Part shown: piece by piece, positions 3,001-52,576 of the stretch
Layout: the number at the start of each line of letters is the position of its first letter
How positions within the stretch are numbered: position 1 is the first letter of the stretch
Assembly: GCA_963922205.1 (NCBI GenBank)
Contig: CAWUHX010000041.1
Span: 868,001 to 932,000, forward strand
From: Romanomermis culicivorax
Lineage: Eukaryota; Nematoda; Enoplea; Mermithida; Mermithidae
Direction: 5' to 3'
DNA length: 64,000 nucleotides
Notes under the pieces: model-generated
The model's database searches: none
Told to the model about the DNA's origin: nothing
The model's input: the letters and a program-made list of their open reading frames with translations, nothing else
Position numbers and translations under genes: made by a program

Positions 3001-6000
3001 TTTCAGGGCGGTTTATGTTTGGAGTGGATCAGAAATTGAGATATCGCCCTTTTAAGTGATGATTCATGCCTTTTTTACCTCACCACAAACATATATACGT
3101 AATATGCTACTTGCAAATATCTCCATTTTTAGTGCTTTTTTCGGAAAAGCAATAAATCGGAGCTTTTCATATCAATCTTGCAGCTATGCATTGCTCAGTC
3201 GCAAAGGGCCAAAAAAGCCAAGAAGTTTTTCATCAAGAAAGGAAGCTTCCAGGCGGGCGAACCCCACCGCTAGTTTATTCCTAAAATAAGACCCAAAGCC
3301 TCTGTGATACATACAAAAAAAGCAACGACAATGCAAAACTGAAATATAAATTTTTTTAATGCTCCATCAGTCTGCCGGTTTATTTTTCAAAACGACCAAT
3401 TTGTCTATGGAATCATTAGCTTCGATTTTGACCCTATTCGGATCGAAATTAGCTTGAGTGCCTCCTTTCTCTGGACAGAGAAAAGAAAAAAATCAGTGAT
3501 TAGAAAAACTCAATACTCCTGAGGAATAGTCAAAATACTATATTGAATACATTGAAATTCAGGGCCCTGAATTCATATCAATTGGAAAAATGACAATAAT
3601 AGAGGAAAAAATGGTCGCGACTCAAAAATATTTGTTCCTGAAGAATTCCTTGGAAGATTGAAATTAAACAGAGTACTCGAATCAGCATAAAAAATTTTCA
3701 AAAGCGAAAAATAGTTAATTATAGCCCTTAGGCAATAATTTTGTCTCTCACCTCCTTTAGCCGTGATAATTTTTTATTTGTCATCTTCACAAATGAGAAT
3801 CAAATCTAACGATATCCAAAGTCTGAAATTTGAATAGAAAACCAAGGCGAATTTCTTAAAATTTTTACCAGAATGGATCTTCTTAGATTTGAACTCCCAA
3901 AATTTTTTTCAACAATTAGAAGCTCGCCAAAAATTTTTTCCTCATTTCCAATTTTTTTCTCGAAAGACACCATTTGAGGAAAAACGGGTGCTTCAAATTT
4001 CAAAATTTTTTTGATTTAAATGAATTAACGCCGCTTTAAATACCAGAATATTTGAAAAAGCTGAAAAACGCTTATATATAGCGTATATGAGCTTTTAAAA
4101 CCGAAAAAACGGCTCGGGAAAAATAGGGAAGCAAATTTTGGCCCCTTTCCGCACTTGGATAAACGCCGGTGGGAAAAAACAGTGATTGCGACAGAAAATT
4201 GAGTATAAGAACAAGAAAAATAGCTTCGGCTCGTTTACTTTGCCAAAAAAAATTTACAGCATCAAGAAACATGCGAAATTCGCTCCGATTTCGAAAATAA
4301 AAATTTAATTTTTCCGCCGGAGTGCGAATGTAGGCGGACCATTCAAACCGAATTTTTTTGCGCGACACAATTGAAATGTTTCAGTTCGGTCGGTTTCCGT
4401 TGATAACATCAATACTTACCATCCTTTTTCACGCGATGAAAATTGTCATACTTGGATGAAAATTGCTGTACTTGCTCACCGCGCGGAAAACCTGCTTCTG
4501 TCCGCCGATAAAGACAATTATAAATGGGTTCTAGGACAATTCGCCCCCAGCAATTCGTCTCCCACAATTCGCCCCTGGTAATTCGCCCCCACTGCAGTTC
4601 GCCCCCAACACAATTCGCCCCTCAGCAATTGCCCCCTCCCCCCCCCCCAGTAATTTGCCCCTGGTACTATACTTGCCTGGTTTTAGAAATTCCATGATAT
4701 GCTATGTAATATATCTCCAGATTTTCTTTTTCCAGCTTCATTTCTTGTAACTTTTTATCGGGATCTATGGAGAGCAGTTAAGATTATGACAAAGTATCAC
4801 AATTATTCTACGTGTGACTCTATTGTGTTCTTCACTATCTTTTTTGTGACAACTTTGCGGTGTACCAAAAACAAAAAACAATAAAAATAGAAAAAATAGA
4901 AGAAAAATATAGAGAAAAATCAGAAAAGAAGAATGAGTAAAAAGTAATAAAAAATATAGAAGAAACTAAATAAGAAGGATAAAAGACAAAAAAGGAATAC
5001 AAGAAAAAAATTAAACGAAAAAAGAAACAAAAAACATAAAAAAACAAATGCAGATCGAAGAACATAAATGACTCGCAATTCTGCCTATGATATCCGTGTT
5101 ACAAATTAAAGTTCTGCGTAAATTGTCCCATGTATTCACGCCATTAGACTAAAATTTGGCATGGTTTCTGGGGATTAGGACACCATCATTACAACCTTGA
5201 AAAAATATGAATTTGCAAATTGCCAGTGTTGAGATTTTTCACAAATTTTTGGTCGAAATTGATTATTTTCAGTCAGATAAACTTTAGCTGCAAGCTTTCT
5301 TTTTGAACTCGGCCACACATTTTGTTTCAAGTGGAAAAGCAACCGGCCACTTCAATTCTAAGGAACTACTGCTCAAACGCTGTATTGCTGACTGTACGAG
5401 TAAAAAATGCTTATACTGACTTAGTAGTAACCGCATCAGTAAAAAAATCTTACATTCAAAGAAAATTAAAAAAAATTATTTGTGAACATATATTTGGAAC
5501 ATTGCTGTAGATCAGACTACTCCATAAGGAGGGGTATGAGGGGGTATTACCCCTGCCTAAAGTCCTAAAAATTGATCACTAGTTGCCTAATTTTAAGACA
5601 AATGACGTGTTTAGTGGACATTTAGCTACACTACCCCGCAAATTTTCAACTTTGCCTTACCTGAGAAATCTGACCTTGGGGACCTCTACTGTAAATCTTT
5701 TTCTTCTTGTACATAATATTTGCACTCTGCATGCAGAATTCATAAATAAACATGCTGGGCTGGGAAAAATCTCTTGGTATTGTGTATGGATGTGTGGAAA
5801 TGCTATTACATAACTGCTGACAACTTGGTGGAATTATTTTTAAATCTGAATTTTTTAGATTAAAAAACAGTGAATTGGGGGCCAATTACTGGGGGAGAAT
5901 TGTGAGGGGGCGATTTGCTCAGGGGCGAATTGACCGGGGCGAATTGTGGGGGACGAAATACTGGGGGCGAATAGTCCGCATCCCTATAAATGACCCTTAA

Positions 6001-9000
6001 ATTATACAGGGTGAGCCAAAAAAAGCGACTGGTACTGAATTTCATAGCCTTCAAAAGGGTGAAGCTTTTCTAATGCGATTTACTGCCCCATCTGGCATAA
6101 AAACAGTAAAGTTTCAGCCAGATTGCTCGAATATTGACTGACTAGAATCAAAAATACTAAACGTCGGTTTTTTTCAAATAAATTTGGAAAAATTGACAGA
6201 AGTTGACAAAATCAATATGTTTTACAACAGAAAAGTACAATACATCCAGTCATAAGAACCATATAACAGCTGGAAACTAAAGGAGAAGCGTTTTAATGTG
6301 TCCTTCTTTCTGTTTCACCAATAATTTTAATCGTTTTTCGATCTGGTCAATGGACAGAATTGATTTTGCTTTGATTTTGCTTTTTTTCAATTTAAAAACA
6401 AAAGCTCGAGATTTTCGCGAAATTTTGCACATATTGAAACAAGAATTTTATGACTTTAAATTACGTGTAACTTACAAATCTGGGTAATTTTTAAAGTATT
6501 ACTGTATGTAAACAAAATTTTTTTCACAAAAGGACAACTTTTACTTCTTGAAAAATGACCACTTTTACTAAATTTCTGTTTGTACAGTAACCGTAAGTGC
6601 TAGGAGCATAAAATTTGGGCCTTATAACGAAGACAAACAGAGCATTGTAACGCAGCAATCCGCATTATAAAAGGTTCATCCGTTCTAAAGTTATCAAAGT
6701 CAGCACCAGTCGCTTTTTTTGGCTCACCCTGTATAAACAAAAGAGATGAAAAATAACATTTTCTTCATTTGACTTGAGCCACTCCGTGACAACGTCCCCC
6801 GAGAAGGGAGTGGCATTTTTGACTTACATATCTCTCTTTTGCTTGCTTACGCAGTACACGATTTTAAAATACTCACATTTCATGTAGGAAATTACTTTAA
6901 AAGTTTCTTTTCCTTATTAGATAAATTTGTAGATTGATTATAAAATTATTGAAAAATTGATATTTCGAAACTCGAAAAAACGCGTGCTAAGTCAGATTCG
7001 ATCGCGGATCATAGTTATATCGACTCGGCACCTCGGCACCATATCACTACACCACACCTACTTCTACCGATCAATAAGTATGCTACGTCATGGCAAGCGC
7101 CAAAAACGGAGTGAGTGGCACACTGATGAAAAAATTCGCCAATCTTAATGCCGTTTCTCGTGATGCACGAATCGAAGAACAAAAAATGTTGCAGCATCAG
7201 ATGCGGTTTCAAAAGCGCTTTCCATCTGATCGGGTCAACATTATAGAACGTGGAAGGAAAGTCAAAAAATCAATTTTTCGTCCGAAAATTTTCAAAACTT
7301 GGACGCATTTTACGGATTACTAACTGAGTATTGTAGATCCAGAGGAGTACTATGCATCGATGAGAAGTCCATCCAATTTAGGAGTGCCTTGGCGGAGTAG
7401 TTTTTTTATTTTCGCCTTTGTTCGTGAAATATTCGGATTCGAAAGAAACCATACTGCAAAAGCGCGGCACACCACATCCTTAACTTCAAATTTGAATAAC
7501 TGACTACCATGAGAATATTAAGCATTTTATTTGCTATCAGCAGATAGAAAATTGAACGCTGAATTCAATGAAACAAGTTTTAGACTTTTATCTTTAATAT
7601 TGGCAAAGTTATGCAACATATTCCACGAAAAAAAATTATGGTCTAGATTTCTCGATAAACATGTCGGTGATAACGTAAATCTCAACATTATAACAATTGA
7701 ACATCAGATTCTGATGTAACTTTTTACGAGGAATCTAATGAGCATAATTAATTTTCTGTTCAACCAATCGTTCGTTATCTATCGAGCTTTTTTTCGAACA
7801 GCTTACTGTAAAAATCACGAATTTTCTGACATATGACTCTATGACGATAGCGTACTTTACTGTTTTCTCTCTACATGTGCCTGTCAGATTAAAGATGAAA
7901 TCACTCGAAATTTTGAGACATCCTCTTCAACGCAAAAATCGGGTTATAATGTTCAAAAAAAAGTAAATGAAGTACTTTTGAAGAGCTATCGAATGACCAC
8001 TAAGCCATCTACCAGAAGCATTTGGATGTTGTGTAAAATGAGATCACACTTTTTGATCTTTTTTCTGTAGTGTAAAGTGAATAACTTGAGATGTAAACGT
8101 GAGCTTTGATAGTTCAAACGATATTATAGAAGTGTATTCAATTATCTATCTAATGGTCTTTTTTTAGTCTAAACTCCCTACCGTTCTTGAAATTTTTGAG
8201 TTCAAGGAAAAGAAACTCACTTTTTCGCACAAACATAATGTGCTAGCGCCGCTGCCGCGCGCAGCACGATACTGGTATATTCTTCCACAGAAGCACGTGC
8301 ACTGCTCGGTATGACGTGTCCAAACCAAACTAGCAGAGAATGTAAAAAAGTTTTCATTGAATGATGGGAGAGAAGCCAACATTTTGTCCTTGATGTCAGC
8401 TTTGGCAATCTCCGATTAAAATGATATTCTTTTATACTGACACTCCTTAATCAACGTTCTGTCACACACAAAAAATAAGTAGAGTTTAATCGGCGATTCA
8501 GTCGGAGATTGGTTGGTCAATCTTCTGTCATCCAGCTCTGAAGGAAGTTAGAATTTAACGAATAAATTAATTGATTACACCCTGATTAAAAAAGATAAGA
8601 TCAATTATAAATTTTAAGCTCTACATATCGATCGAGCGGATTTCCATATTTGGATATTTTTTCGTTTATTCTCAGTTTTTGTATTCCATTTTAGTCATCA
8701 GACAAAAAATCTTTATACATTAAAAATTTTGCTTTCAAATTTTCTCAGATTCCTCATGAATACATGAATTTATCAAGCTTAATTGTTCCTCGTATCATTA
8801 TAACTAGAGCAAATATTGGAAAGTTTTTTCATAACTGAAATTAAAGTTCATTTGCTGTTCTCGCTTTTCCTGATACGTTTTATTGAGCATGATGCCTCAG
8901 GTTTTCGCTGCCGCCGTTGAACTCCATTTTGCAATACAGAGAAGGTGCTAGAAATAATATACCCGATAACGACTCGTTAAAAGCTGCCACCGAAATCAAA

Positions 9001-12000
9001 AGTTTATGCTCAAGACTCAAGGAATCCGATATATTGATCGTCCTCATTTCAGGTAACTCTATTCAAATATTTTTGTGAGCAGTTTTAGGTTTGTCGAACA
9101 AATTTCAGTCAATTGGCGGTGACAATTGACAATTGATGATAACAATTGACAACTGACAATTACATTAATTCTTTTATACCTATTGGCACACTGGTGAGTG
9201 AGTTCAAATCTTTAAGTTGTAAGAATGATAACGTTTTAATCTTCCGTTTTTTATCTTGATCTTCATGAAACAACGCATCAAAAGTTGTCATTTTGAATAG
9301 CCGTAGTCTTCTGTATAATTCTTGTACAGTTCGAGCTGCTTGAGTCTTTCATCGTTTAAGTGTGAAAATATTAATAAAAAACATAAAAAAGAATGCTGGA
9401 AAAAACAAAACATCAAGAGAAAGGAAACGTGAACAAAAATGAAGACAAAAAATAAGTGAAAATAGGTAGAAAAGCATTAGAAAAAGAAAGAAGAGGCAAC
9501 GTAGAGAAAACAACAATAAAGAAGGAAAAAATGTGAAAAAAGAAAGAATCGGGAAGGGTTAAAAGCAAAAACACTAAGATGAAAAGTAATGGAGAAAAAA
9601 TCAAAAGGGATAAAACTATATATGAAATAGAGCGTGTCGAAATGTATAAGAATTATACGGAAGATTATGCTTATAAAAAATAACAACTTATAATTTATTG
9701 TTTCATGAGCAAAAAAGAAAAAAGTGGATGAAAAGAAAAACGAAAATAAAAGAAAGCAGAGACAAAATATAAAAACGTAAAAACATACATAAACGAAAAC
9801 ATTAAAAATACACACAAAAAAACGAAAGAAAAAATAAAAATATGGGAAAAATATAAGGTAAAGAAAGAAAACATGAAAAAAGTTTCATTAAATTCTTGAT
9901 CGCTCGTTTGGAATCGCCCAATAGGGAATTCGCCCAATTGGGAATCGCTCACTTGCGAATTTTCTCAATTGGGAATCGCTCAATTGGGAATTCGCTCACT
10001 TGGGAATTCGCTTACTTGGGAATTCGCTCAATTGGGAATCGCTCACATGGGAATTGCTCAATTGGAAATTCGCTCTCTTGGGAATCGCTCACTTCAGAAT
10101 CGATCACATGAGAAATAACTTCTCACCATTGGCCAATGTCGGGGCACGTGTAACGATCCCGATCAGGGCTCAACGAAAATAGGCGGGTTCGGAACACGAA
10201 ATGTTGTATGTTACCATACAACAAACGTTTGATCGCGCCAGTCCTGCAACAGTAACCTGTAACTTATGTAATACAGACCCCATACCAAAAACCGGGGCTC
10301 CTGAAGACCCGGCAGATTTTGATTGATACTCAGGAGAACCCACTCCCCAGCACTGACCAAGAAGTTGATGAAGGAAAGTGAGAAAAAGAGAAGTGAGAGA
10401 CGCCATTAGAATGAAACTGATGAATTTTAACGAATTTTCTAAATAAAGCATACTCGATTCCAAAGAAGTAACATCAAAACTTTTAAAAGTGCTGACCAAA
10501 TGAATAGTTTCATATATTTGACTAATACAGATGAGCTAATATGCTGCTTAGATGTTAGAATACCTTTCTTTTTGTTACCAATAAGGAAAAAATTTTATAT
10601 CTCACCCCTGTCCTGGCTGACCTCAGCAGAATTTCCATGCTGTGCATATATATAAAAATCTACTGCGATTAGATTCATTTTGTTTTCGAACTGCTGATGA
10701 GATTGAAATGAAAATTTCATTAGTTTTTTAGGTGGCGGTTCAGCCCTGTTACCTTGTCCGCCGTCAGGTATAACTTTGGACGATAAAGTCACTTTGATTA
10801 AACTGCTCAGCAGTCGTGGAGCCGATATTGTGCAATTGAATACCGTAAGACAAAAGTTGTCCGATTTGAAGGGTGGCGGATTGGCCATACTAGCCAAGCC
10901 AGCAAAAGTAAATCTCAATGGCGATTTCGTTTGTTCATACTTGATATCTAGATCATTATTCTTTCAATCATCGTGAGTTAATGCCCGAGCCAAGGTCCTG
11001 CCATAAAATGCGAAAGATGGAACACAGTCAATCCTCATTGTATTTGATTTTGGTTTTCAAATATGGAAGTCATTTTTCCCCCAAATATGACGTCAACCAG
11101 CAACCTCCACTCAGAGATTTAAAGTTTACTTCAGGATCTGGTGATCATAAATGTACTTTTATTTTCTTGACTTGGTCACATAGTGGGACTCATCAGAAAA
11201 ATTCTGTTCCATTACACCATAGGTCAAAATTATCAGAGCTGAAACTTCATCTTGCCATCTTGCAGTGCGACTCGCTAATTTGCTTCTTCTGGTGTAGAAT
11301 TTAGATGAAAATAATTTTGTTTACTTGTCACGAAAAAAATCAAATGCTTGAGAAATTCTTCTTACCAAAAAAAGATGAAGGAAAATGAGAAAAAATGGAA
11401 AGATGTCTTTAGAATGACAATGATAACGGTTTTCCTTAACAAAAATACTTGATACCAATGAAGTAACATTAAAACTTTAAAAATGGCTAACTTTTACTAA
11501 TATAGACGAAAGAGTATAATGCTTGGATGTTGACCTATCTTTTTGTTATCAAGGAATAAAAAAAATTCTCCATCCTTGTCCTAGCTGACCACCAGCAGAA
11601 TTTCTTGCGTGTATGGGTACAAGCTATACAGCCGAAAACAAACAACAATACCAACAAACCAAAAGTATTTTGAAGCTCATATTTTCTACAGCAGAAACTA
11701 CCTTTGCGAAATTGTGCAAATTACACCCTGTGTATTGTAAAAGCAAAATAATTATATGCAAAAAACATCCTGGAAAATCTGAATCCATGTACGGCAGGGT
11801 TACGACTGTAGAAAATCGTCGGTGTTTCCAAGAAAATCACGTGAGACGTTGTAATTTAATAGAATCTTTTTTTGGGATTTCTTAATGTTTTGCTTTGTGT
11901 TATGTTCCGCTTGATGACACCAGCCATCCGATCAGGCTTTTTTTTAGTCATTTTAGGAGCCTGGGTCCCTAAAAGTTCGGAAATGGCTCTTAAAATTTTA

Positions 12001-15000
12001 GGTCTAGGAGCCATTTTGGCTCCTGAAATTTTGACATATTCATTTATATTATAGTGAATTGTAGCTGTTTTCATTCAATTTTAGATTTGAAGTAAGTGTT
12101 TTACAGGCTCTAAAATCATAAAACTTCGAAAATTTTCCGGCGCTTCGCGCCGGATCTTATTATATAATTTTTTTAATTAGTCTATTCACTGTTTCTCTAC
12201 AAATCAAACTTTCTGGAAAAAAATTCTCGACGAAGGGAAAAAACATGGGGGTTCGACATGGAAAAGATGAATTTTGGTGCATTTGGTGCAAAAGAATTCT
12301 GGTGATCAAAATCTCAATTTTTCCATTTTTGTTACTATTATTTTAAATATGGAGCCGAGTTTGAATTCATGATTATTATGGGATGGAGGTGATTTTCATA
12401 AATTTCAAGTTTAATTTGAGCTTGTCAAACTTATGAAAGTATGAACATATTTTTTAGTTTGTAAAATGATATAATACATGTTTTCGAACCTTGTATGTTT
12501 ATCGAATAAGTTATCCTTAAATTGATTTTCCAGCATTTAGAATGTCAAAATCTGAAAAAAATCGTTGCATAGCGCCGGAAAGATATAGGAAACAACAGAA
12601 CAATGAGAACAGAAGCTGCAATTTCAAAACCCTATACTTTTGAGTCGGAAGGAAATGAACTCAAGTGCAATCTTGGATGAAGACTTGTGCAAAATTAAAC
12701 GAAATATCGCGTTTTTTGCATAAAAAATTTTCTTTGCACAAAGATTTCTCGGCCGATGTTTGTACGTGTGGAAATATGCCTGTAACTGAAAATGTTGGGT
12801 GGAAATCAAATTTTGAACAGTGATTTTTTAAAACTCGTATCAACTGATTGAATATCTACATAATTTAATTATATAGTACGTTCTACAGTGTGTTACAAGC
12901 ACGCTTTTCAATATTCTTCAATTAAAAATTTTTGGCTCCCAAAATTTTAATTTGGCCCCTAAAAATTTAGGCCTAGGAGCCATTTGGCTCCTGGTTTTCA
13001 AATCAAAAAAAAGCCTGCATCCGATAGCATGACCCTTTTCCTGATTTTTTAGCTATTTTGTATTTTCGTCAATTTTTCTGCTACATTTTATTTGGCCAAT
13101 GGAAAAAATATATTTTATTGGACCAATGAGACAAAATAGAAGAAGAACAAAAAAAGGGAAACATATATTAATATTTATTGATAGAGTGAATCAAAACCCT
13201 GCTAAAATACTTAACACAATTTCACAATTTTTTTGCTTCTACCAGCGGAATTTCAAAGACAACTGGCATCAAAACCAAAAGGTCAATGACCTTCAATCAG
13301 GACCGCTGTCATAAAGTGAAAGATGAAGCAAAGAAAAACATTAAGACATTTCAAAAAAGATGCCAAATTACAATTTCTCATATGATTTTCTTGGAAACAC
13401 TGACGACGTTCTGCAGTCTTCACCCTAATTATTTTGCTTTTTCAGCAAATAGTGTATGATTTGGTGAATTTTACAAAAATAATTCCTGATGTGAAAAATA
13501 TGAGCTTTAAAATATTTGTGGTTTGTTGGTATGTTTTTGGCAGTAGAAGAATTATAAACGTGTACGATACTTGCACAGCATGGAAATTCTGCTGGAGGTG
13601 AACCAGGTCAGGGTATAGAATGGAAATTTTTTGTTTCTTGATAACAAAAAATGAGTTTTCTTACATCCATGCATTATATTCTTCCATCTATATTGGTAAG
13701 ATATGTCACAGTATTCGCTTGATCAACAATTTATAAAGTTTTAATGTTACTTCCTTCGTATCAAGTATGCTTTGTTTTGAAAAATCGTTATCATTGTCAT
13801 TCTAATTACATCTTTTCATTTTTTCTAATTTTAATTTATCGTCGTCCTTATCGACGCTGGTTGGTCTAATCTGCTGAATTTATCAAGAATCTGCTGGGGG
13901 TCCATCTAAATCTGCTTGGGGTCCAGACCTCCCTATGTGCATGCATATGCTTGTATCAATATTCATTTTGACCGAAATTACAATATTATGCATTATGAGG
14001 TGACGTACTTTTATGCACTATAGCTCAATAAAAAGTGTTTTTATTTTCCTTATTTCTGGTTCATTGAAGGCCATATGGTTGCTCTTCAAGCTGACAAAAT
14101 TTGGAGTTCGGCCCGAACCTGTTTGAGTTACTGTAGGCCAAAATGTGCAAAATTTCAACAGATGAATCTTTAAATTTCTGCGTTCTTTTGTTCATATAAA
14201 TGCCAACGAACAATTTTTTGTTGTGAATATGACATATAAATGAAGCGCAACATATGCTCTATCATTTAAAGAAAACCCGAACAAAATGTAATACAAATTG
14301 AGAGGACTGTACGTGAAAATGCAACATCAAGCATTTTTGCAGTTTTCATATAAATTTTTGCAACTTTAAATGCCCATAACATCGCGAAAAAAGGAGTTTT
14401 GTGTAAAATGATTGTTATCATCGTAATCAGCGTCTAAAACTAAACACAGTAAGTAAAATTCGGGGCAACTTTTTTTAGGTTATCGGACCTCGCGGTGATC
14501 CTTACAGAAGGTGACTCTTAATGCTCAGAAAAATTTCACGTTATCCTTGCATTCGATAGAATCTTACGCGTCTATAGTCTATTTTTCTTGAAAGGCTTCT
14601 AAATAATGAAAGTGAAAAGCAAGTAGTACGATTTTCAGCACGATTTTCTGGTAAACCATATAACATATAGGACTGGAAATTTGTGAGCATAATCAACTTA
14701 AGCATACTTAAACAATTTTTTGAGTGAAAATTTTTGCGGTAAGAGCTCTATGTAAACGATTTTAATGACAGTACTGATTTGTGTCACTTTTCTATTTGGA
14801 AGCATTTTTTAAAAAAGACTATACGTCCTGCTTTCACATTAGAGTAGTAGTGCAAATCATGTCTTTATTCTTGTCAATGACTGTGAATTAATATGATGAT
14901 TCGCTTACTAGTCGTTAGAAAACTAGCTAGCAAACTAAAACTATATATACTCATAAATTTATGAGTTATTCATATTGAAGAATGAGTTTTTTTCAGGTCA

Positions 15001-18000
15001 TATCTCTTATCATATCAGACGTGATTGGTAATAATACGCAAATTATCGCTAGTGGTCCAACAATTCAAAGTTCTTATAATGCGGAAGATGCGTTAGGAAT
15101 CATCAACAAGCTTTGTAAGCCGGATGAAATTCCAGAAACAGTCTTAGAATATTTGAGTAAGTTTATAGTGAGACCAATAGTTTTACTACTTTGTATCTGA
15201 GTTTTTGCAAAAGATAGTTGATAATATGACTTTTCTGCTGTCAATCTCATTATAAGGGGCGCATTTCCTGTGTGATAATCCAAATAAGGAGGAAGATCCA
15301 CAAAATTAGGGTCGTATTTGAATTTCACTGTTAGTTTTAGCAATGTAACGCAGGTATCGAAAGAGTACACGACTCACGAACTTTGTAATAGTATCAGTTG
15401 AGTCTGTTGAATCTGATGTGGCTTGGCACTTCCAATCGTTTTCGTAATTAGGTTATTTTATTCGATCACTCAGATCCAGATCTCCGTTCGTGTAAAAGAT
15501 GTTTTGGGTCATTGGGTCATATAGTGTAGAATACAATCCGGATTTTACTCTTATATCGCTCTATATATCCATACTCTGTTGAAAGGTATAATTTTAGAGA
15601 AAACTTCGTCAGTACCGCCACTAGATTCGTCGGCATTCAATCACGTGACCAACGTTTTAATCGGCCATAATGGTTTGGCTCTGAACGCTTGTAAAAATCA
15701 CCTCGAGCGAGTATACGATGTGGACTGTATCATTTTGTCAACAGACGTCGCTGGCAACGCGGCACCAATTGGCATTTTGGTAGCGCAATTTTTGAACAAA
15801 ATCGTCGAAGTGAACAATCGTGATAAATTCGATTGGCTAAAGCCGCCATTTTGCGAAGAAATTTTTAGCCAAAAATACGACGAACTACGTCACTTTCTAA
15901 TAGACAAATTATCAAAAGACAAATTCAAAATCGGCGTACTTTTCGGTGGTGAAACCACCGTCAAAGTGAGAGGCACGGGAAAAGGAGGTCGTAATCAAGA
16001 GATGGTGCTCGCATTCGCGATCAAGGTTTGTGTCCAGAGGTAACAATTCTTATTGGCTGCTTCGCAATCTATAGACTTCTCTGAAAACTCAAGATCAAGT
16101 GCTGCTATAGTACTAAAATTTACAAACCTCGGTATCATGAAAATGTTCCGCCAATTCTTCAAAAATCGCAGTAATATGCTGATTTATGCAAAAATTTGTC
16201 ATTTTCATATGTATATCGTTTATTTATATAGTTCGGATTTGATATTTTTAGTTTTAATTCAGGTCACATTATTCAGTTTAGCAAGCACATTTTCTGTAAT
16301 CAATATCCTCGTCATCCAGGAACCCTATTTAGTCACGTCCTATATTTCCATGTTATGTTCAACAAAAGAGATTCCAGTCTACGTTTTGTGTTAATCTGTC
16401 ACAGCATGGAAATTTGTTGGCACTGTTTTGCACGAGATTCACTGTATTCTGCTCAAAACTTACCTTTCAGTATCATCAATGCTTTTCATTGGCTTGGCAA
16501 GTTCAAATTGTGACAAAATCTATGTGTAAGGATAAGAAATCGATGAAAGTGTAAAAAATTCTTGAACGTATAATTTATCTGACAACTGTTAAAACAATAT
16601 CAACAAGTTTAGAAGTATGCTGAGACGCCAATTTTAAATTTTTCAATCTTTTTTCAGGCATGTCTTGAAAAATGAGCTGATTTATTGAAAAATGAGCTGA
16701 TTTACAAATTTTTAAAGGAATGTAATGAGCTTCAAATCTAGGAAAGAATTTGAAAGATGATACCGTATTCTATTGGCGTGCGCTTAAGTGAAATAATTCA
16801 GTTGTCGACCAGTGATGAAAAAGAATGTAGGAATTCCGATTACTAGAAGCGTCTGATGTTCTAACTACTCTTTATTCTTTAGCATTAATGTTTTACTAGA
16901 ACTTTAATCATGAAATATTCTAAAAAGCGAAAAAGCATCCATATTTAATTGAGTTCGTATTATGTAGGCGAAAAGATATCCAAGCACTCTTTCCATTCCT
17001 GTTTTAACTGCGCGTTGCATACAAATTTACTATCCTCAAACACGTGACGCGTCACTAGGATGCAAGACATTAGGACGCAGACAATAGGACGCAGACATTA
17101 GGACGCAGGGACATTAGGACGCAAGGACATTAGGACGCAGAAATTTAACCCCAGAATTTGTGAAAGTCAATCTGAAGGGTATTATTCACTGTTCTGGAGG
17201 CTCACTTAGAAGTGGGTTCAAAGAAACTGAAGAGTCTTGAATGCCTCCCACATTGCAACTTTTTCTGCTTTCGAATGAGTTTGAAAAGCAGTGTCAGTTC
17301 AGACATGGATAGAATATCTATTTATTTTTCAAAGCCTTAAGTACAATTCAGCTAAAAATCAAAATTGTATGAACACCTACGCATAAAATCAATTAAGTTC
17401 TGGTTTTCATAATCAGCTATGAGATTCCATAGACGTTGATTGATCAGCCGATGGATCGATTTCGTAAACATTGGAGGTTGATAGCCAGCATTAATCTGTT
17501 GCCTGTGAGTTTCCATTAGCGATTGCTCTACTCTAAGTGCTTCTATCAACGGGTAAATGGTAGGATGTTTCAAGCCAATTGTCATCTGAAAGAGATTATA
17601 ACTTTAGACAGCGTTTTGAAAACATGTTGCAGCTCAAAAAAATAGGTGGGGGAAGGCCAAAATTTGGGGGCAGTGGCTATTTTTTTAAATGAAATTTTTG
17701 CCCAAAAATGCAAGAAAAATTAATTTTCAACTAGAGATGCAAAAAAATATTACTTTTTTGGACCACAGATGTTTCCGAAATGTCAATTTCAAGTTAAAAC
17801 ATCGAAAAAGGTGCACTTTTTTCTAAAAAAATTTCGAAAAATTGGGACAGGTAAAGTTTTAAAAATCTGGGTGGGGTCCCAAAACCTGGAGATAGCTGGT
17901 CCTTGGGTGGGGGTCCCCCACCCATCCCCCTCATAAGATGTATGGCTTTTGTAAATTGAATAAGCAAATAGTGTGCATACCTGAAATGCACAGTGCCAAC

Positions 18001-39284: not shown

Positions 39285-39388
39285 TTCCTGCTATTGAAAT
39301 TTTGTGCGCATATAACACAGTAACGTTGTGCGTACCTAAAGCAAACCTATGTAGAAATTCTTTACAAGCCATATGCATTTGCTGAACT

Positions 39389-40555: not shown

Positions 40556-41184
40556 TATGGGCATGCTCCCAACTTATCAGTCTGATGTGAAATGTGGTTG
40601 ATCCGGAAATTGTAAAAACGGGAAGAAGAAATACGTGTGTTCCACTTTTATGTACAGGAACATTTTTAAGAAAAACGGACTGTCTCTACAGTCAATTGAT
40701 GTGAAAAAGAGCTCCTGACTGACGATGCAGGTTTCCTACATATTTGCATAAACATTCTCCTGTGTCGCCGAGGCTCCAATCATTCCCTAAAGTGTGACAC
40801 CGAACGCAGAGACTGCTCTAATATCTTTTTTCCAAATAAGCATATGCGCTTACGGAGCAGGTAAATATCATACCTGCTCATCTTTTTGGAATCAAGCAGA
40901 TTATGTCAAATGATCGTTATCTTAATTCAAGCTGGACAAAGATAAGTATGATTGTTCGATTCATCACTTGATTGAAAGTAAAAAAATCGCTATTGCAAAA
41001 TCTATTTGCGAGAGTTTTTTGGACAAACTGTATTTTTGCAAACGTTGGTAATAGTGTCCTACCGTAACACTGTCAGAGGCCATACTAGGCTTACTTACGG
41101 GCTGTACCTGTTTCACATTAATTTTCACACCAAAAAAAGCTGTTCGCAGTCAAATCAGTTCCCGTTAGGACCGAGATTGTTAAA

Positions 41185-41190
41185 TTTATT
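41185..41190 (-). terminator. Polyadenylation signal of the vWA-TSP1 gene
   Basis: AATAAA on the minus strand, 54 bases beyond the TAA at 41246-41244. Confidence 0.45.
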
Positions 41191-41243
41191 AATCCGAGTC
41201 ACAGGAAGGCAAGAAGTAAGTTTGTAAGAAACTGTGAATCATA

Positions 41244-44200
41244 TTAGTACATAATGTAAGCTCCGATATTAGCGTCGCTTTTTTTCGGCGCCGGCAATTT
41301 TCTCGCCGTCGATCCGGTATGAAATCCCTTTAAAGTCATATACCCAGGCGTCGTTGCCGCCATACTTTTCTTGTACGCAGCTGGCGGTTGTAAGTCCGCG
41401 TAAGTGGCCGCCACTTTCGATTGACGTCTTTGCGTCGTCGCTGCTTTTTTCCCAGTCGGCGACGGCGACCGTTGCGAAGTGGGCGGCGGTCGTTGCAATG
41501 ACGATTGTCGCGGCGCCGGCCATTCGTTCCGCGGCTGCGGCTCGCCGTAATCCCATTCGCCCTCGTAGCTCCTGCTTTGCGGCTGCTGTAGTTGCGAGTA
41601 GCCTTGCGATTGACGCGGTGAAGTCGCTGCGGAATAGGGACTGCCGCCGCCATAGTCGTATTCTTCCTGCGACGGGGCGGACGTCGTCGGTGATCGAAAC
41701 TGCGGCGGCGGCGCAGCCGCGAAATTGCTTCGTTTTTTGAGCTTTCCGCCGTCAAGCACGACCACTCGGCGTTTAGAACTCCCTTGGCCTTTGAAAATGA
41801 ACATCGTGGCGACGATGCAGCAAGCGAAGCTAATTATGCAAACGGCAGTCGCAGCGACGATCAAGATCGGAAAGCTCATGCCCATTACAATCCATTCGGT
41901 GGTTGTCGTAATTGTAATTACTGAAAAATGTTCTATTGTAGTTCATACGGGACAGTTTTATACTTTACCGATCCACAGTAGACAAACTTCTCGGAACATC
42001 TTTCACTTATAGTCTGTTTTTCATAAAACGCTCAGCACTATCGTCGAAAACGCCTAAACAAAGCTTCAACGATATAATCATTTTCCAGAAGGATTCACAA
42101 ATTTTCAGTCCTGACAGATATAGTTTAGCAGAAAATCCTATAAATATACAAAGTTACTAGCCCTCCACAGTTATTTTTTATAACTATTTAAAGAAAAACG
42201 AACTAGATGGTCAGCTTTTCTCGAAATGCTTCTAAATCATGGAACTATAGTCCGTTTTCCTCTTGAAATGCTCGTAAATCAAATTCTAGTCAAAATCTAT
42301 TATTTACTGCCACGAAACGATCGTTTAAAATTTATAATTTTTGAGCCCAAGCGGGTAACCCTCAAAGGTTTTCAGGAAAGAATTCTACACCAAAACCAAA
42401 GGGTAAATAATTGTGAAGACGGTAGTTTTTTGTCATCATTCAATTTACAGGCATTTTAAAAAGATCAGGTGACTAAATAATTTTTGAGGATGGTTTATGC
42501 TTCGACGCAAAAAAGCAAAGAACAGTTCCCATTTTGTTGCGTTTCCGATTTGTCAAAAAAATATAGTTATTGGTTCGGAAATCAGAGGTTCTGTGACAAA
42601 TACTTTAAATTCTAATTGGCACTAATTATACTTTATTAAAATGTCGAAGTGCGCATCAAAAAATGAGTTATTCGATCGAATTTGTATTACCAATTCTTGA
42701 TTAACATACAAAATTGTTTGTGGAGTCGATGACTTATCTCAAAAGTTATGGTATGTTTTTTATAAAATGCTTTAAAATAGAAAAGTGACACAAATCAGTA
42801 CTATCGTCAAAACCATTTACATAGAGCTCTTACAGTAAAATTTTTCGCTCGAAAAATTCTGAAAGGTTGGCCAACATGTTCACAATTTTCCAGTCGTATT
42901 TGATGTATTGTCTATGAGCAACTCGTGAAAATCTTAAACACTGCTTGCTTTCCTCTTTTATTATTTAGAAGCATTTCAAGAAAAACAGACTATAGTATAA
43001 AAACCAGGATTTGTAGTGCACTGTAAATAGATGATTAAATTTTTGGTCGAAGTTTCATTTCAGGACCAATCTAACAGTCTATTTAACTCAAACTGAGTCA
43101 AACTCACCTGTAGTTGCTTCGGTCATCGTACTAACGGAAGTGAGGGGTAGTGTCTCGACTGCGTAGTCCTCGTCAATTAGAGGAAACGGCATGGTCGTTA
43201 ATTTTTCGTATATTTTCGTCGGTCCGACCGGCTTGACGCACGCAAGGATATCTTGTTTTCTACAGCTTACGGTCCACTCGCTGTAGCGACGTCCACCGCT
43301 CGTCAAATTTCTCCTTGAACGGTGCTTGATGTCACCTCTTTTCGTAGAATAGCAAACCGACCAAGGACCCCAGGGCTTGAGATTGCAGTCTTTCATGCAT
43401 TCGCTATTGTCGCAGGGAATTGATCTGCGAAATGATGCAGACATGAGAATCCAATCTCGACTGTCGCAGGAATATTACAAACGCCATGATGAGTATTGAG
43501 TACTGTATATTCTCATAAAATCCGAGGGGATTGGATTATTTTTTCAGGCTTTTTGTGCTGGTTCTAATATTTTTTTCACAAATCATCAGTTTGAAAGCTC
43601 TCACAATTTGAGTATTAGGTACATAAATACAGAATCCGAGCAAAAACTATTTGCTTGGTCAGCCTTTTATGATGTTTTGATGTTACTCCTTTGGAATCAA
43701 ATATTCTATGTTAGGAAAAGTCGTTCAACTACAGCTTCATTTTCATTATTATGACGACTTTCTCTTCCCTCTTTCTCATTTTCCATCATCTTTTCGATTA
43801 ATGCTGGGGGGTCGAATCTGTTGGGGATAGCAAGAATCTGCTAAGGATCAATCGAAATCTGCTGAGGGGTTAATACCCATGTGCATGTGTCATAAGTCAT
43901 ATCACTGTTTCATTAAGTTCTCCCCTTGGAGCTACATTACCTAGTGTGACTGAAATTCTTGTTGAATTCCAAAAGAAGCACTCAAGTTCATTGAGAAACG
44001 TCCATACATTTACAGCAGACAAAATCTGCTGAGGGCAGACTTTATCGAGGGTGAGTGGACTTTTGCTGATGCACCATTGAAAGTAACACAAATAACACGT
44101 CTTACATACTCGTATATGTGGCGAAGAATCTCATATTCCATATAGATGGGTTTCCAAGATTTCACCACGATATAGTCAATAAGCTCGTAATCAATAATTG

Positions 44201-47200: not shown

Positions 47201-50200
47201 CCTCATTTGCGATTTGCCTCACGATTTAGCCCAGCATTTGCCCCTCGATTCATCTCGCCATTTAGAGCAGCAATGACCCATTGTTTAGCCCAAAAATTGC
47301 CCCATTACCGCATGGCAGAAAATGGGGCAGCTAGCCCAGCAAAAATGTGTTCACATGCTGGATTGAAGTGTTTTCACAGTGTCGGCAGAATGCACATGGT
47401 GCGAACAGTGTTTGTGTGATGAGTGGCATGAGCTCATGGTAATGGGATACCAACTTTTCCGTTTAAGAAGCATTTTTTCTCGTGGAATACATTGCCCAAC
47501 TTGTGAATACTTTGAAAAATGAACATTCATTGGCTGCAAAGCATTTCTATGTTGAGGCAACCTGTTCCCGCTACTCGGGGCTTCAGTAAAAGCTAGACTC
47601 AGTCCGGGACTCGAACCCAGGACCTTGCGGCTACCGTCTGAACGCTCTAACCAACTGAGCCAACCGAGCAGCTTGAAAGGTGCTCTCTTTTTGGAACAAT
47701 CCGTAGTTGAGGTGGCTGCTGTGGCCACTCTCAACATCTATAGTGAGATATCGATAATTATCCTGGTCTCTACTATATAATTTTTAGATATGCGAAATCG
47801 AAGTCAATAATCAAGGGTCCAATAGTAAACGATTGCAGCTTAGAGACTGTTGGGTGTATTGTGTGACAATAAAACAGGAATATACAGCAGATTAATTTGG
47901 TGATGGTTGGAACTCAAACAATGTAACTTCTTTGGTTACAAAGTTTGAACAGGTTCACTTGCATTGCCAAATTTAATGCATTATTTCAGTTGGTATGATG
48001 TGCTAGTTGATTTGAGACCATATCAATCATTTCACGAAGATACTTTTTCCAAATTCATATCGTAATTTGAACTCAATATTGTCGTACCTTTGGAACAGAT
48101 TTTTTCTATTTCTAATCAAAGGTCTCTCAACTTGATCTTCTCTCCAATTTTCATCCACCACCACGTTTATAAGATCTACTAGTAAATCCATTGTTTTATT
48201 CTTGAAACAATATCCTCTTTGTATTTTAGTCCCCACCACGCAGGACTATTTCGTGGGCTAAACTTTTACCGAAAAATGCCACAATTTAGCCTAGCCCACC
48301 TTTCGCCATACGATGGCGGGCTATCCTCTGTTTAGCCTGCCATTTAACCCCGGTTTGTCCCGCATTTTGGCTTCAGATTTAGCCTGCCATTTAATTCCAA
48401 TTTTGCCTCGCATTTTGGCCCGCAGTTTTATATTGACTATAGCCCATCATTTGGTCCGAGATTTACAAGATTTAAAACATATTTTCCTCCAAGTTTAGCC
48501 CGCCAAATAGCCCGCGATTTTCTTCACACTTTCACCCACGATTTGCCCTTAGCCCACCATTCGTCATTCGGCCCTAAAGAGCGCATGAGCAGTAGAAAAA
48601 AACTGATCTAGGGCAACGATTTCACCCCTATTCAGCGAAACACACAATAGCGAAACTCAAAATAGCGAGACTTAATACAGCAAGTCTCAAAACAATAAAG
48701 TCTCAATAAAACGATTCTCAAAACAGCGAAGTCTCAATACAGGGATCCTCAAAACAGCGGAGTCTCAATACAACGATTCTCAAAACAGCGTAGTCTCAGA
48801 ACAGATTCTCAAAAAATTTATCTTTAGAAAGGAAAAATGGAGATTGGTTGGGGTAGACGTTTCGACGCATAGCCTATTTGGTCCTCCATTTCCATCTGGT
48901 GGATGCCGGTTCTCACACATTTTGGCACCAATCGCCAGATTTCTGACATTATGGCTCTATAGCATGTGTTTTCATGACAATACAGCTTTTTATTCTGGTT
49001 TGTTCATTATCATAGGTGACGCGATAGCGTCAACCTATAATATCCTTGGCCTCCAAATTTCATGCCCCCCCCCTCCCCTAGAGCCAAAACGGTTAGAGCT
49101 AGAACCTTCGTGTCTTTTTCATAATTTCGAGCATAGGGGCAAACTGCGGGGTGCCTTTTGTCATTTCGCCTCTATCTGCAAGTAGTGCTCGGTGGGGCCC
49201 CAAAAACATACAAAAAAGAACTTTTTTAGGTCCCCCAGTTCCACCAGGCCCAGCAATGGGTGTGCCATATCCAACCTCCATACTTAGGCCTAAGCATCTT
49301 GGGGGTGCAATCTCAAATGCGATTTTGATTTTTTTAATATGTGGCCTCCATTCAATTATATGGTTGTCCAAAGTCCCGAGAACCGATAAATTTGACATGC
49401 ACCATTGGTGCCCGAATTTTTTGCAGTTTCAATTGAACCAGTAGCGTTATTGGGATTTTTTGGTTTGAGAGTTTTCGATCGAAGCGAGTTCAATGGACGC
49501 GGTCACTTTACACAAAAAACATCATCATTGATGTGAATGAGGTCACTCCTGAGAATTTTGTAAAACAGGGGTTTTCGAAAAAAGAGAATTAGATGGACGC
49601 AGTCACTTTACACGAAAAATTATTCCGGGTGCAAACAAGCATATTTTCGTAATAATTTTGTGAAAGGGGTTTTCGACCACGGGAACTTAATGAATGCGAT
49701 TACTTTACACAAAAAATTATTCCGGGTGTAACCAAGCGTACTTCTGCGGCTTTTTGGTGGAAGGGGTCTTCGACCGAAGCGAATTCAATGGATGCGGTCA
49801 CTTTACACAAAAAAATCATCATTAATGTAAATGAAGGTACTCCCATGACTTTTTGGAGGAAGGGGTAATTGACCATTGGGAATTCCATGGACGCCGTCAT
49901 TATACACGAAAAATTATCTTGGAAGCGTATTTTCGTCATAATTTCTGCCAACGAGTTTTGGGCCACGGGGAATTCAATGAATGTGCTCACTTGACACAAA
50001 AAAATATCCCGTGTGTAAACAAGCGTATTTTCGTGATTTTTTGTGGAAGGTGTTTTCGACCACGGGGAATTTAATGAATGCGATCACTTTACACACAAAA
50101 TTAATTTGAGTGTGTACCAATGTATTTCTGCGATTTTTGGAGGAAGAGGTTTCTGACCATGGGGAATTCAATGGACACAGTCACTTCACACGAAAAATAT

Positions 50201-52576
50201 TTCTGTGTGTAAACCGAGGTATTTCTACGGTTTTTGGGGTTGGAGGGATCTTGATCATGGGAAATTCAATGGAAACGGTCACTTTACACTATGTCTACAA
50301 CGTGTTTTAAGTTCTATGTATATTACACATCTTTTACTTTTACCGGAAGTGAGAATTCGTAGCTTTAAGATAGTTTTTTCATTGTTTCTTTGATGTGAAG
50401 ATGACCAAATTTAAAACTTCAATGTGCTTCTACGAAGGTTTTCATGCGTGGCTGAGGCCCACTAAAAAGAGGTGGACTAGTTTATTAGAAAATGTCCCGA
50501 TGGGGCAGAAAAAAAATATATACTTGCTTGGATCATTGCCAAGCTAGAAAAAGAAGTGGAAAAGATTTTTGAGAACTTGGGTTAAAGTTGGAAAAAAATT
50601 CATTTTCGTTATATTGGATTTTCATTCTTTTTCAAAAGAAATTTTCCATGTCTGTGAAAAAATATATTCTGCAGCTGAGTGCATCAGCACACTTTCCAAC
50701 CAAACATGTGCATCTCCGAAATTTCGAGGTGGGTACAGGAGTGGACTTTGGCTCTTGGCGTTTTTAAGGCAAAAAATTCAAAAAAGTTGACCAAAAATTT
50801 TTTTCCATAAATTTTCCAGTTCCAAAACCCTTGGGGTAGTTTGTACCGCCCATGCCCTCCTTCACACATGTGTGCTTCTTACTGCGTTGAGCCTTTTTTC
50901 TAAATTTAGTGTCAATAAAACAGGAATCAACTCTGGGAAAGTAACACATGAAATCCCACTCAGTTTTTTTAGAAAAGGCTATAGCACAAAGTTTTCTTAG
51001 AACTAAATCGATTGTGCAAGATATGCTTAATTCACTCATTTTATATAACATATCATATAGAATTCACTTTGTAAGTAACCAAGGCTCAGTTGCACTAAAG
51101 GGGTATAAGCTCGAGCTCAAGATTTTCTCGAGCAAAAAGGCGACTCAGTTTGATCTCAAGTTCGGCATAATTTGAATGTCATCAGGACTGTAACGAGCTC
51201 AATGTCCAGATTATAACTATAGTATGCCTCCCTCACCATTTTTCAACCAGTGTGAGAGGTAGAAATTTTGAATCGGTCGGGAGTTAGAATGCTATTGGTT
51301 TACCATTTATTTACATTTGATGTCATGTGCATATAATTTCCATATAGAAAAATTTTACTATAGTTGATTCTAGGGGAAGGAAAAAATGCATGATGCTGCA
51401 GAATATACTTTTTCACAGACATGGAAAATTTCTTTTGAAAAAGAATGAAAATCCAATGGAACGAAAGTGAATTTTTTCCAACTTTAACCCAAGTTCTTAA
51501 AAATCTTTTCCACTTCTTTTTCCAGCTTGGCAACTATCAAAGTAAGTATATTCTTTTTTCTGCCCCATCGGGGCATTTTCTAATAAACTAGATAACGCAT
51601 CTGCATGCATGTTTTTTGTTCGTTTTTCCTTTATTAACTTATTCCGTTTTATATTCTTATTTTGAGCCACTTTTTGTTCTTTGCCCCTCTGAGTCTGATA
51701 AACTTCCATTTAGAGAGCTCTATTATGTAAGATTTTGATGACGGTACTAATTGGTTCACCTCTCTATTTGGAAGCACTGCATAAAAAATAGACTATAGAT
51801 GACCAAATTCAACTAAAAATAGACTATCTCAACTTGCAAAACGATTTTAATATACCGGATTTGCTTATTTATTATAAAAATGTTATGTGCGTTTACCCCA
51901 ATGCATAGAACTTTTTACTATTCGCTGTATATTCGCTCTTTTGAGAATCGCTGCACTGAGATTCCGCTGTATTAAGGATCGCTGTTTTGAGACTTCGCTG
52001 TTTTGAGAATCGCTGTCTTGAGTCTCGCTATTTTGAGTTTCGCTGTTGTGTGTTTCGCTGTACTGGGGACACGCCGGTATGAACCGCGTGTATGGTGTAA
52101 AGAGCTAAGTGTAAAGTGAAAGCTGTACATGCCGTAATTAGCATAGTCCATGGACGAACTTTCGACGATGGGGATGGAGATGGGCGCTGGGTACTTATGC
52201 ACTTTATGACCTATCGAATTTTTCCTGTTTTTTTGCGCATAGGTTGTATGGTTTACACACACTAGGTTAGGCGTACGGCGCCGTACGGCGAAGTATAGTT
52301 GGCCCTTAATACGTTAAAAACCTTAGAAAATATTCAGTGGTCGCTAAAAAGAATAAGTGCCGACCTCTCTGCCCAACCATTATAGTAACAACGGTAGACT
52401 TGCAGAACAACAAAAAACAGAAAATATTCTCCAGAAGACAAATTCAAAAAACCAAGTAACAAAAAAATACTAAACCTTATTTTAATCCTCGTTTCCAACA
52501 ACGTTGAGCCATCGCTCGCTCCGAGGAGGATCAATAACACGACAGCGACTATCATTCCAGCAAGGAATGGTTGCAT
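41244..52576 (-). CDS. Type I membrane protein: vWA-like domain, TSP1 repeat, membrane span, Pro/Tyr-rich tail
   Basis: Five exons: 52576-52476, 46480-46050, 45026-44588, 43424-43108, 41920-41244; phases agree, 654 residues. Residues 1-25 are a signal peptide (MQPFLAGMIVAVVLLILLGA). About 35-260 look like a divergent von Willebrand A fold: hydrophobic strands (FIASETSFIND, KIVILFVQ, VAVQVYVVAV) alternate with helices, but the MIDAS position reads ASETS rather than DxSxS, so metal binding is doubtful. A cysteine-rich stretch (HCACTRSREC) and a TSP1 repeat (WGPWSVC, RSRRNLTSGG) follow. Then come a threonine-rich stalk (ITITTTTEW), the span ILIVAATAVCIISFACCIVA, and a 170-residue tail rich in P, S, Q and Y ending NIGAYIMY. 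The adhesion or guidance receptor role is inference. TSP1 and membrane span are firm; vWA is my reading. Intron 1 holds 6 kb of repeats. Confidence 0.75.
42008..42290. mobile_element. TATAGTCTG-family fragments in the intron of the vWA-TSP1 gene
   Basis: One end (TATAGTCTGTTTTTCATAAA) starts at 42008. A second, oppositely placed end lies near 42205 and a third (TATAGTCCGTTTTCCTCTTG) at 42246. They look like two overlapping or nested short copies. Internal ACTATCGTCGAAAACG matches other copies. Confidence 0.5.
42737..42992. mobile_element. TATAGTCTG-family short MITE
   Basis: The right end is AAGAAAAACAGACTATAG. The inner blocks CACAAATCAGTACTATCGTC and ATAGAGCTCTTACAG are the reverse of those at 14573-14825. 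It lies in intron 4 of the vWA-TSP1 gene. Confidence 0.7.
43640..43890. repeat. Repeat R3 copy with AATCTGCTG tandem tail
   Basis: TTTGGAATCAAATATTCTATG and ATGACGACTTTCTC match the 55625-55875 copy. It ends in repeated AATCTGCTGGGG-like units (43805-43872) that also occur at 13875-13925. Non-coding, in intron 3 of the vWA-TSP1 gene. Confidence 0.6.
47165..47345 (+). repeat. Degenerate tandem repeat of ATTTAGCCC/ATTTGCCC units
   Basis: About eleven units of GATTTAGCCC-like sequence. A second array of the same type lies at 48240-48570 in the same orientation. In between are a tRNA-like segment and a Harbinger transposase fragment. The equal orientation argues against a simple foldback pair. 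Confidence 0.55.
47596..47669 (-). repeat. tRNA-derived sequence (SINE head or tRNA pseudogene)
   Basis: On the minus strand the 74 bases fold partly as a tRNA. The acceptor stem GCTCGGT pairs with ACTGAGT (two wobbles), the D-arm is GCTC..GAGC with GTTGGTTA loop (A box), and the T-arm CTGGG-TTCGAGT-CCCGG contains a good B box. The anticodon arm does not pair (TTCAG against CCGCA) and lacks the conserved U33, so it is unlikely to be a working tRNA. The sequence continues leftward with no tRNA trailer, as in a SINE body. Confidence 0.7.
48027..48239 (-). pseudogene. PIF/Harbinger transposase N-terminal fragment
   Basis: A minus-strand frame contains LIRNRKNLFQRYDNIEFKLR then YEFGKSIF and stops. 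The RxR..RYD..EF..RY.FSK layout is typical just upstream of the DDE nuclease domain of Harbinger (HARBI1-like) transposases. Only about 50 informative residues remain and no DDE domain follows. It could once have served the Harbinger-like MITEs in this window, but that link is inference. Confidence 0.5.
48240..48570 (+). repeat. Degenerate tandem repeat of TTTAGCCTGCCATTT units
   Basis: Units of TTTAGCCTGCCATTT and CCCGCATTTTGGC run in series. It is related to the array at 47165-47345. Confidence 0.55.
49035..49460 (+). repeat. Dispersed repeat R2, copy 2
   Basis: Parallel to 490-960, with the same order of blocks (AGAGCCAAAACG, GCTCGGTGGGGCCCCAAAAA, CCTAAGCATCTTGGGG). It leads directly into the minisatellite, as copy 1 does. 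Confidence 0.75.
49465..50295 (+). repeat. Minisatellite, about ten units of roughly 80-90 bases
   Basis: Each unit contains a variant of TTCGACCACGGGGAATTCAA, then TGGACGCGGTCACTTTACAC and AAAAAATTATTCCGGGTGTA. Unit length varies. Only about two units are present in the R2 copy at 980-1110, so the array expanded or contracted after the copies separated. Confidence 0.75.
50463..51595. repeat. Long inverted repeat, about 230-bp arms
   Basis: 50463-50690 and 51365-51595 are reverse complements at high similarity. Blocks include AAGTGGAAAAGATTTTT, ACTTGGGTTAAAGTTGG and TTTTCCATGTCTGTGAAAAA. The loop is about 680 bases. Transcribed, it would make a strong hairpin. It sits within the 48625-52069 element. 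Confidence 0.8.
52262..52312. repeat. Solo Harbinger-like end
   Basis: GGCGTACGGCGCCGTACGGC followed by GAAGTATAGTTGGCCCTTAA resembles one terminus of the palindromic MITEs. It has no partner end nearby. Confidence 0.4.

Follow-up and report, generated by a model that had tools for sequence, protein, structure and literature searches.

Probable foldback-type Mutator-like elements with unequal tips and ordered terminal repeat units in the nematode Romanomermis culicivorax

The inverted tandem arrays found in this stretch of Romanomermis culicivorax DNA very probably belong to foldback-type Mutator-like elements (MULEs) with two-part ends, in which the element would be cut at a short tip and the array behind it would be bound by the transposase. 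The assignment follows from the inverted arms, from target duplications of 8-9 bp and from a MULE gene lying between the same arms, the latter two being found together in families E1 and E3. Layout, tips, duplications, unit order and the MULE genes between such arms are read directly from the DNA. The window is the whole stretch that was analysed (64,000 nucleotides, C41:868001-932000), and the genome searched is the 359,112,060-base assembly in 595 contigs. Elements of the window are labelled E1 to E6 by unit type, F7 and F9 being further unit types beside MULE genes elsewhere. The window features are as follows.

4527-5984 (1458 bp), no strand assigned: E1, inverted arrays of a 14-bp unit
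4519-4526 and 5985-5992: perfect 8-bp duplication of E1, TATAAATG
4527-4539 and 5972-5984 (minus): E1 tips, GGTTCTAGGACAA and GGGATGCGGACTA
about 4540-4668 and 5871-5971: E1 arrays, 8 and 7 units (inverted arrays at 4537-4636 and 5876-5972)
9899-10125, minus: E2, solo arm, about 14 units GAGCGAATTCCCAATT (array 9899-10114)
17043-20207 (3165 bp), minus: E3, with the layout of the pairs named in the initial annotation; tips CGTGACGCGTCAC and GGCGCTATGCCGT, 13 nt
17034-17042 and 20208-20216: perfect 9-bp duplication of E3, CCTCAAACA
17056-17145 and about 20072-20194: E3 arrays, 6 and 8 units
17376-18710, minus: E3 MULE transposase remains, in pieces 17376-17585, 17981-18073, 18213-18422, 18478-18684 and 18675-18710
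25432-26230, no strand assigned: E4, decayed candidate pair, TTTCGGCGCC-type units
35612-37222, no strand assigned: E5, inverted arms of a 17-bp unit, tips of the CGTTGTGT and GATTGTGT type
35626-35691 and about 37120-37212: E5 arms, 4 and 5 units (inverted left array at 35622-35690)
36550-36864, no strand assigned: array of E4 type, then a pyrimidine-rich tract, nested within E5 and within the second E5 copy
48618-52075, no strand assigned: E6, arrays of 15/31-bp period
48618-48632 and 52061-52075 (minus): E6 tips, 15 nt, GATTTCACCCCTATT and GGCGTGTCCCCAGTA
48633-48814 and about 51925-52060: E6 arrays, 11 units after hand splitting and 9-10 units (inverted arrays at 48656-48814 and 51932-52061)
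49471-50289 and 50477-51591: E6 interior, a 97-bp tandem array and a nested TIR element
61470-~63230, minus: E5b, a further, partial copy of E5 in inverted orientation, with one arm (61470-61623) and a MITE (61976-62727) inside

The arrays of the window stand out from background, as inferred from 17 TRF rows (period 8-35, at least 2.5 copies, score at least 60) against 0 in each of 30 dinucleotide shuffles. At these settings TRF pairs just the arrays at 4527 and 48625, the remaining pairs depending on alignment, and with both approaches inverted arrays are evident in E1, E3, E5 and E6; long inverted ends with tandem units are present in these four families and in F7. The initial annotation had named four inverted pairs, of which those at 4527, 35628 and 48625 hold by TRF or alignment and that at 25423-26262 is too decayed to prove, and its list lacked both E3 (17043-20207) and the part copy at 61470-~63230. 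Its suggestion that the array at 9899 is a solo arm stands, as the array, with its roughly 14 units, is genuine and no partner array was found in the window. For the flanks, the chance level was estimated from 200,000 draws of random 25-nt pairs, of which 0.29% have a 9-mer in common and 1.05% an 8-mer.

In the window copies of E1 and E3, exactly 13 nt separate the duplication from the first unit core at both ends. Searched genome-wide, the E1 unit pattern gave 648 forward and 640 reverse matches and the reversed-pattern control 0 and 0; this and the other genome-wide pattern counts refer to units or two-unit patterns, several per arm, and not to elements. We analysed the first 20 distinct sites of the 100 places listed among these 1288 matches, 6 kb each, and array pairing revealed an inverted partner at 16 of them; both ends were found by their tips at 17. 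One GGTTCTAGGACAA-type tip (A1) and one GGGATACGGACAA-type tip (A2) are present in all 18 copies, that is, the 17 listed sites and the window. The 9-nt flanks at the exact ends of the 17 listed copies agree at 9/9 positions in 10 and at 8/9 in 5, the exceptions being L048 (7/9) and L050 (2/9); when left flanks are compared with the right flanks of other copies, 0% reach 8/9 or more and the best agreement is 7/9 (0.65%). The window copy scores only 3/9 in this frame because its duplication is 8 bp long. A further copy, C34:1349086-1352809 (3724 bp), has A1 and A2 tips, E1 arrays, a 9-bp duplication GCTACAGTA and, between its arms, a match to PF10551 (E=2.3e-9). The interior of the window copy yielded no Pfam transposase (9/9 ORFs of at least 55 aa scanned). 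Part of this interior (5513-5673, 161 bp) is 81% identical to 307-467, being a dispersed repeat or captured fragments, and two MITE copies that are 81% alike (6002-6736 and 61976-62727, ends CAGGGTGAGCCAAAAAA), which we take to be mariner-like, lie one at most 20 bp from E1 and the other inside E5b. Exons matching DUF4147 and MOFRL, presumably parts of glycerate kinase, were found at 3-353 and 15525-16040, so that E1 and E2 probably lie inside an intron of one gene; the window also has a weak VGCC_alpha2 match just below cut-off.

The E3 element of the window contains the remains of a MULE transposase: a single piece matches PF10551 at E=0.0064, and the joined protein, assembled from pieces in different frames, at E=1.3e-9 (38.8 bits, cut-off 27.6). 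Relatives of this transposase elsewhere in the window were not detected by tblastn, the best outside match (E=0.043, 49738-49785) falling within the 97-bp array of E6. The E3 pattern matched the genome 329 and 356 times (control 0 and 0). In a sample of twelve places, chosen because they were pairs, one CGTGACGCGTCAC and one GGCGCTATGCCGT tip occur in 10/10 of those where both tips can be read. Exact duplications of 8-9 bp flank 8/12, and in seven of these 13 nt precede the first unit on both sides; duplications are absent in 4/12, two of which have no readable end. An exact search for either tip next to a unit retrieved 79 places in the genome (38 A1 and 41 A2, counted by hand; control 0), and the 18 plus-then-minus neighbours within 5 kb have one tip of each kind in 18/18, two of these pairs also belonging to the sample of twelve. 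At L006:1287-1628 an E3-like array (CTGCGCTCTAATGTC) directly adjoins an E5-type array.

PF10551 matches in the assembly number at least 122 (150 of 248 candidates scored). At 30 fetched loci the gene is flanked by tandem arrays, inverted, on both sides in 9 cases and by an array on one side in 11, and has none in 10, in stretches that extend only 1.5 kb each way and with the 2.9-copy 21-bp repeats in L031 and L034 counted as none. At seven loci the F7 unit GACAATTGGGTGAA lies on both sides of the MULE gene, with one GGGTCTAC and one GGGATCCC tip (about 8 nt) in 7/7 and duplications of 8-10 bp in 6/7, L024 and L027 having the same flanks. The 18-bp unit F9 was found at two MULE loci, one with a 10-bp word common to both flanks and the other with a flank cut off. 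At L015, L017, L018, L023 and L025, a further array type of 15-16 bp (CGAGCAATTGTATG) adjoins the MULE gene; within the stretches fetched it was seen on a single side.

The arms of E6 are 82% complementary over 135 nt in the window, and its pattern gave 3002 and 2960 matches (control 4 and 0). In the first 8 listed sites after the C1 match, tips GGTTTCACCCCTATT and GGCGTGTCCCCAATA are both present at 5, one of each in 5/5, and no clean tip pair was seen in L073, L075 and L077. Duplications at the 5 listed pairs are exact in L074 and L076, agree at 7 of 8 positions by eye in L079 and L080 and are absent in L078, and the window copy has no flank duplication at up to 1 mismatch. L079 also holds an inverted pair of E2-type arrays; in the window, the outer end of E2 may lie at an imperfect palindrome (10109-10125). 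About 500 bp of the E6 interior (49036-50289) are 74% like 496-1030, within a region (307-1110) of dispersed repeat or captured fragments, the 97-bp unit being single near 980-1106 and tandem in E6; the nested TIR element has 199-bp arms that are 93% alike. A tRNA-Thr (GGT)-like gene is predicted by ARAGORN and Rfam at 47596-47669 on the minus strand.

The arms of E5 agree at 62/78 columns, TRF rows covering the left arm only, and its pattern gave 350 and 346 matches (control 10 and 9). Tips of the CGTTGTGT and GATTGTGT types occur one of each in 4/4 judged by eye. At none of 5 genome loci did the 40-nt flanks have an exact 8-mer or longer in common, and no duplication at up to 1 mismatch was found for the window copy. 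Just outside the left arm, 35554-35604 belongs to a dispersed family of repeats of about 240 bp, found also at 14572-14816, 25755-25992, 37284-37391, 42756-42995 and 57864-57950. The second arm of E5b was not found. E4 retains 2 units on the left and 1 on the right at a PWM score of at least 15, a score also reached singly elsewhere; no alignment of its arms reached the print cut-off, and the one 8-mer with one mismatch in its flanks is at chance level for zones of 66-71 nt. By its layout E5 is built like a MULE, and both E5 and E4 may be MULEs. Interior ORFs of at least 55 aa scanned against Pfam (E4 2/2, E5 10/10, E6 20/20, E5b 9/13) gave none above the curated cut-off, with a lowest E of 0.025 when E1 is included, and no transposase was seen between E5-, E6- or E2-type arms. 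The absence of a transposase claimed in the initial annotation therefore holds for the elements named there, whereas the window E3 and the E1 copy on C34 carry MULE genes. Its proposed genome-wide search bore out the pairs, as unit patterns number hundreds to thousands against 0-19 in controls and the inverted partner is present at 16/20 listed E1 sites; the 8-10 bp duplications it looked for occur in E1, E3, F7 and some E6 copies and are missing from E5 (0/5 loci, none in the window). Rarity of pairs and lack of duplications, which it would have taken as evidence to the contrary, were not what we found, E5 without duplication excepted.

Other inverted structures of the window are arms of about 120 nt at 1894-3115, 93% alike and 1.2 kb apart, without tandem units and by eye without duplication, and two short inverted-repeat elements with ends GGCCCTGTCATACTTC in common (22926-23129 and 53873-54149). 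There are also six 120-nt runs of at least 80% purine or pyrimidine, five in or beside the elements described here, one of these at least 265 nt from the E2 array, and one elsewhere (27927-28058). These runs may be due to chance or be a counterpart of the purine-rich motif in Tm1.

The internal organization of the arms was analysed at the level of single units, which in E1 and E3 are distinct types in a fixed order common to both arms; each family has its own unit, as initially annotated, but the units of an arm are not homogeneous. In the window, the same-position likeness of the two arms was reached in 0 (E6), 223 (E1), 3574 (E3) and 1155 (E5) of 10,000 permutations, being significant for E6 and E1 and not for E3 and E5, and in unit-level alignments the counts were 0, 47, 234 and 144 of 2,000, respectively. 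At the listed E1 sites, steps along the unit series are forward in 53 versus 11 cases in A1 arms and in 80 versus 13 in A2 arms, differences of 42 and 67 against at most 21 in shuffled arms, the unit types and their order being taken from the same listing. Alignments of arms at different places, carried out without typed units on 31 E1 arms (at least 3 units) and 18 E3 arms with 100 shuffles each, gave for E1 0.696 between A1 arms (shuffled-order maximum 0.406), 0.779 between A2 arms (0.284) and 0.687 between A1 and A2 arms (null mean 0.254, maximum 0.292). The corresponding values for E3 are 1.604 (maximum 1.265), 1.751 (1.369) and 1.673 (null mean 1.217, maximum 1.279). Likeness through descent accounts for the order within one arm kind; the same order in A1 and A2 arms indicates that the rows are copies of one series. 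Copies differ by unit loss or repetition, so that gain and loss of units does occur. As for the two arms of one copy, their likeness to each other compared with that to other copies is 0.130 versus 0.103 in E1 (1585/10,000 permutations, 14 copies) and 0.186 versus 0.233 in E3 (9700/10,000, 8 copies): own arms are no closer than arms of different copies, and hence no ongoing arm-to-arm conversion within copies is seen. Between families (36 pairs, nine typed strings), unit likeness was reached in 0, 0, 2 and 6 of 300 shuffles for the E2-E6 strings, in 3/300 for E1-E4, 4/300 for E6-Tm1 and 12/300 for E1-E2, and the E2-E6 likeness alone appears safe.

In these patterns an end consists of a tip, short in every family (13 nt in E1 and E3, 15 in E6, about 8 in F7), beside the 8-9 bp duplication, followed by some 4-16 units, each 14-17 bp long. 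An element's two tips differ, with one of each wherever both are readable, and in E1 and E3 the rows repeat, in inverted orientation, a single ordered series made of distinct units. Subunits of the transposase, we infer, occupy the units as an array and make their cut at the tips, possibly only if the paired tips are of different kinds. The many gene-less copies, which would have moved in trans, probably owe their transposase to elements that carry a MULE gene (the window E3, the E1 copy and other families). The initial annotation suggested a transposase that reads an array in place of a fixed end, which does not agree with the fixed tips, 8-15 nt long, that lie beyond the arrays of E1, E3, E6 and F7.

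An explanation by independent simple repeats, inverted by chance, might draw on the short periods and on the purine-rich tracts near several arrays, but we regard it as virtually without prospect in view of the 0 arrays in 30 shuffles and of the duplications and MULE genes; it is refuted for E1, E3 and F7 and possible for E4. Galileo-like elements of the P superfamily were also considered, as Galileo has foldback ends with repeated sites (PMC3688188); this assignment is most improbable, for a MULE domain lies between E1-, E3-, F7- and F9-type arms and the E3 pieces have no match to a P-type transposase or THAP at E up to 1, MULE being the sole match above curated cut-off.

Within the MULE assignment, the arms were initially proposed to evolve like satellites, units being amplified and gene conversion homogenising them within and between arms. 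Unit number indeed varies between arms and copies, and blocks of units are sometimes repeated, such as f-g-h in E1, yet in E1 and E3 the unit order is the same in either arm and from place to place, it is the same between the window E6 arms (0/10,000), and arms of one copy are not more alike than those of different copies, which makes this proposal very unlikely and, for E1 and E3, largely refutes it. A separate question is why the tips come one of each. Descent is the probable reason: families would have spread from few elements, no pairing rule being needed, and copies within a family are related and some families were sampled in small numbers. On the other hand, recombination between arms could create same-type pairs, and none occurs in 18 (E1), 18 (E3), 7 (F7) and 5 (E6) elements; in addition, the sole same-tip Tm1 element is without duplication (PMC3169594), which fits a pairing rule. 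Such a rule, similar to the 12/23 rule of V(D)J joining, can be put forward only tentatively: one A1 and one A2 tip would be needed to transpose, and the ordered row would serve both ends as a docking ladder, selection maintaining its order. If it were true, a recombinant with equal tips would be unable to move, and this would account for the lack of such elements even though the series is the same in both arms.

In raw sequence, transposon ends made of blurred satellites resemble those in which an ordered series stands behind fixed tips of unequal sequence; the MULE ends described here allow the two to be told apart. With several families, thousands of units and MULE genes flanked by matching arms all in one genome, unit binding and end pairing can be tested directly. 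In the bacterial Tn7, whose transposase is unrelated, the left end likewise differs from the right, and each has several sites for the transposase, the likeness being one of working and not of kinship. The Drosophila FB element has ordered 10-, 20- and 31-bp units. Foldback ends with tandem repeats are common to Galileo, which belongs to a different superfamily and has several binding sites for its THAP domain, a reading of repeated sites having been proposed (PMC3688188), and to Tetris, which has 220-bp units, unit duplication between alleles and no known transposase (PMC4079207). Marzo et al. 2013 state that for the tandem repeats of Foldback and Phantom elements binding was untested (PMC3688188). 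Plant MULEs with tandem TIRs also have repeated end sequences (PMC3310237), but they repeat whole long TIRs and not 14-17 bp units.

The mode of end evolution was initially suspected to be undescribed; in fact, tandem-unit MULE ends in several families are already in print (PMC5225508, PMC3169594). Among Muta1-Muta14 of Aedes aegypti, 10/12 long-TIR families have 9-15 bp tandem repeats; 8-9 bp duplications, a short terminal motif, a Muta1 of about 3.2 kb and non-autonomous copies of varying unit number are also on record (PMC5225508), so that many MULE families in one genome, short repeats, short tip and 8-9 bp duplications are common to both species. Of the Muta families, 13/14 have a FLYWCH finger (PMC5225508); for this finger, N-terminal in Phantom-type MULEs, the decayed candidate E3 pieces gave no match at E up to 1. 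A terminal palindrome occurs here at only 3/10 ends (about 6% or better, 13-22 nt pieces picked by eye), and was rejected as a general hallmark. The account of these Aedes families, as far as it extends (PMC5225508), held no mention of tip asymmetry. A similar layout is found in Tm1 of Meloidogyne, a Mutator/Foldback, Phantom-type MULE: its 7-bp tips, A1 and A2, are asymmetric and are followed by GGA and by 1-9 tandem units, mostly of 14 bp and differing in number between ends, and it has a 9-bp duplication and a purine-rich inner motif (PMC3169594). The tips of E1 can likewise be read as 7 nt (GGTTCTA / GGGATAC) followed by GGA and the array, and two different tips, one per end, are present in E1, E3, E6, F7 and E5. 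In Tm1 one tip of each kind occurs in 24/39 and 20/22 elements, and one element has equal tips (PMC3169594); its tip letters differ from those found here, and it has a single unit type. In the literature seen on such ends, Tm1 included, we met no mention of an ordered unit series common to both arms. The general layout is already known from mosquitoes and nematodes, and the repeats of the present elements are an ordered series and not a blurred satellite.
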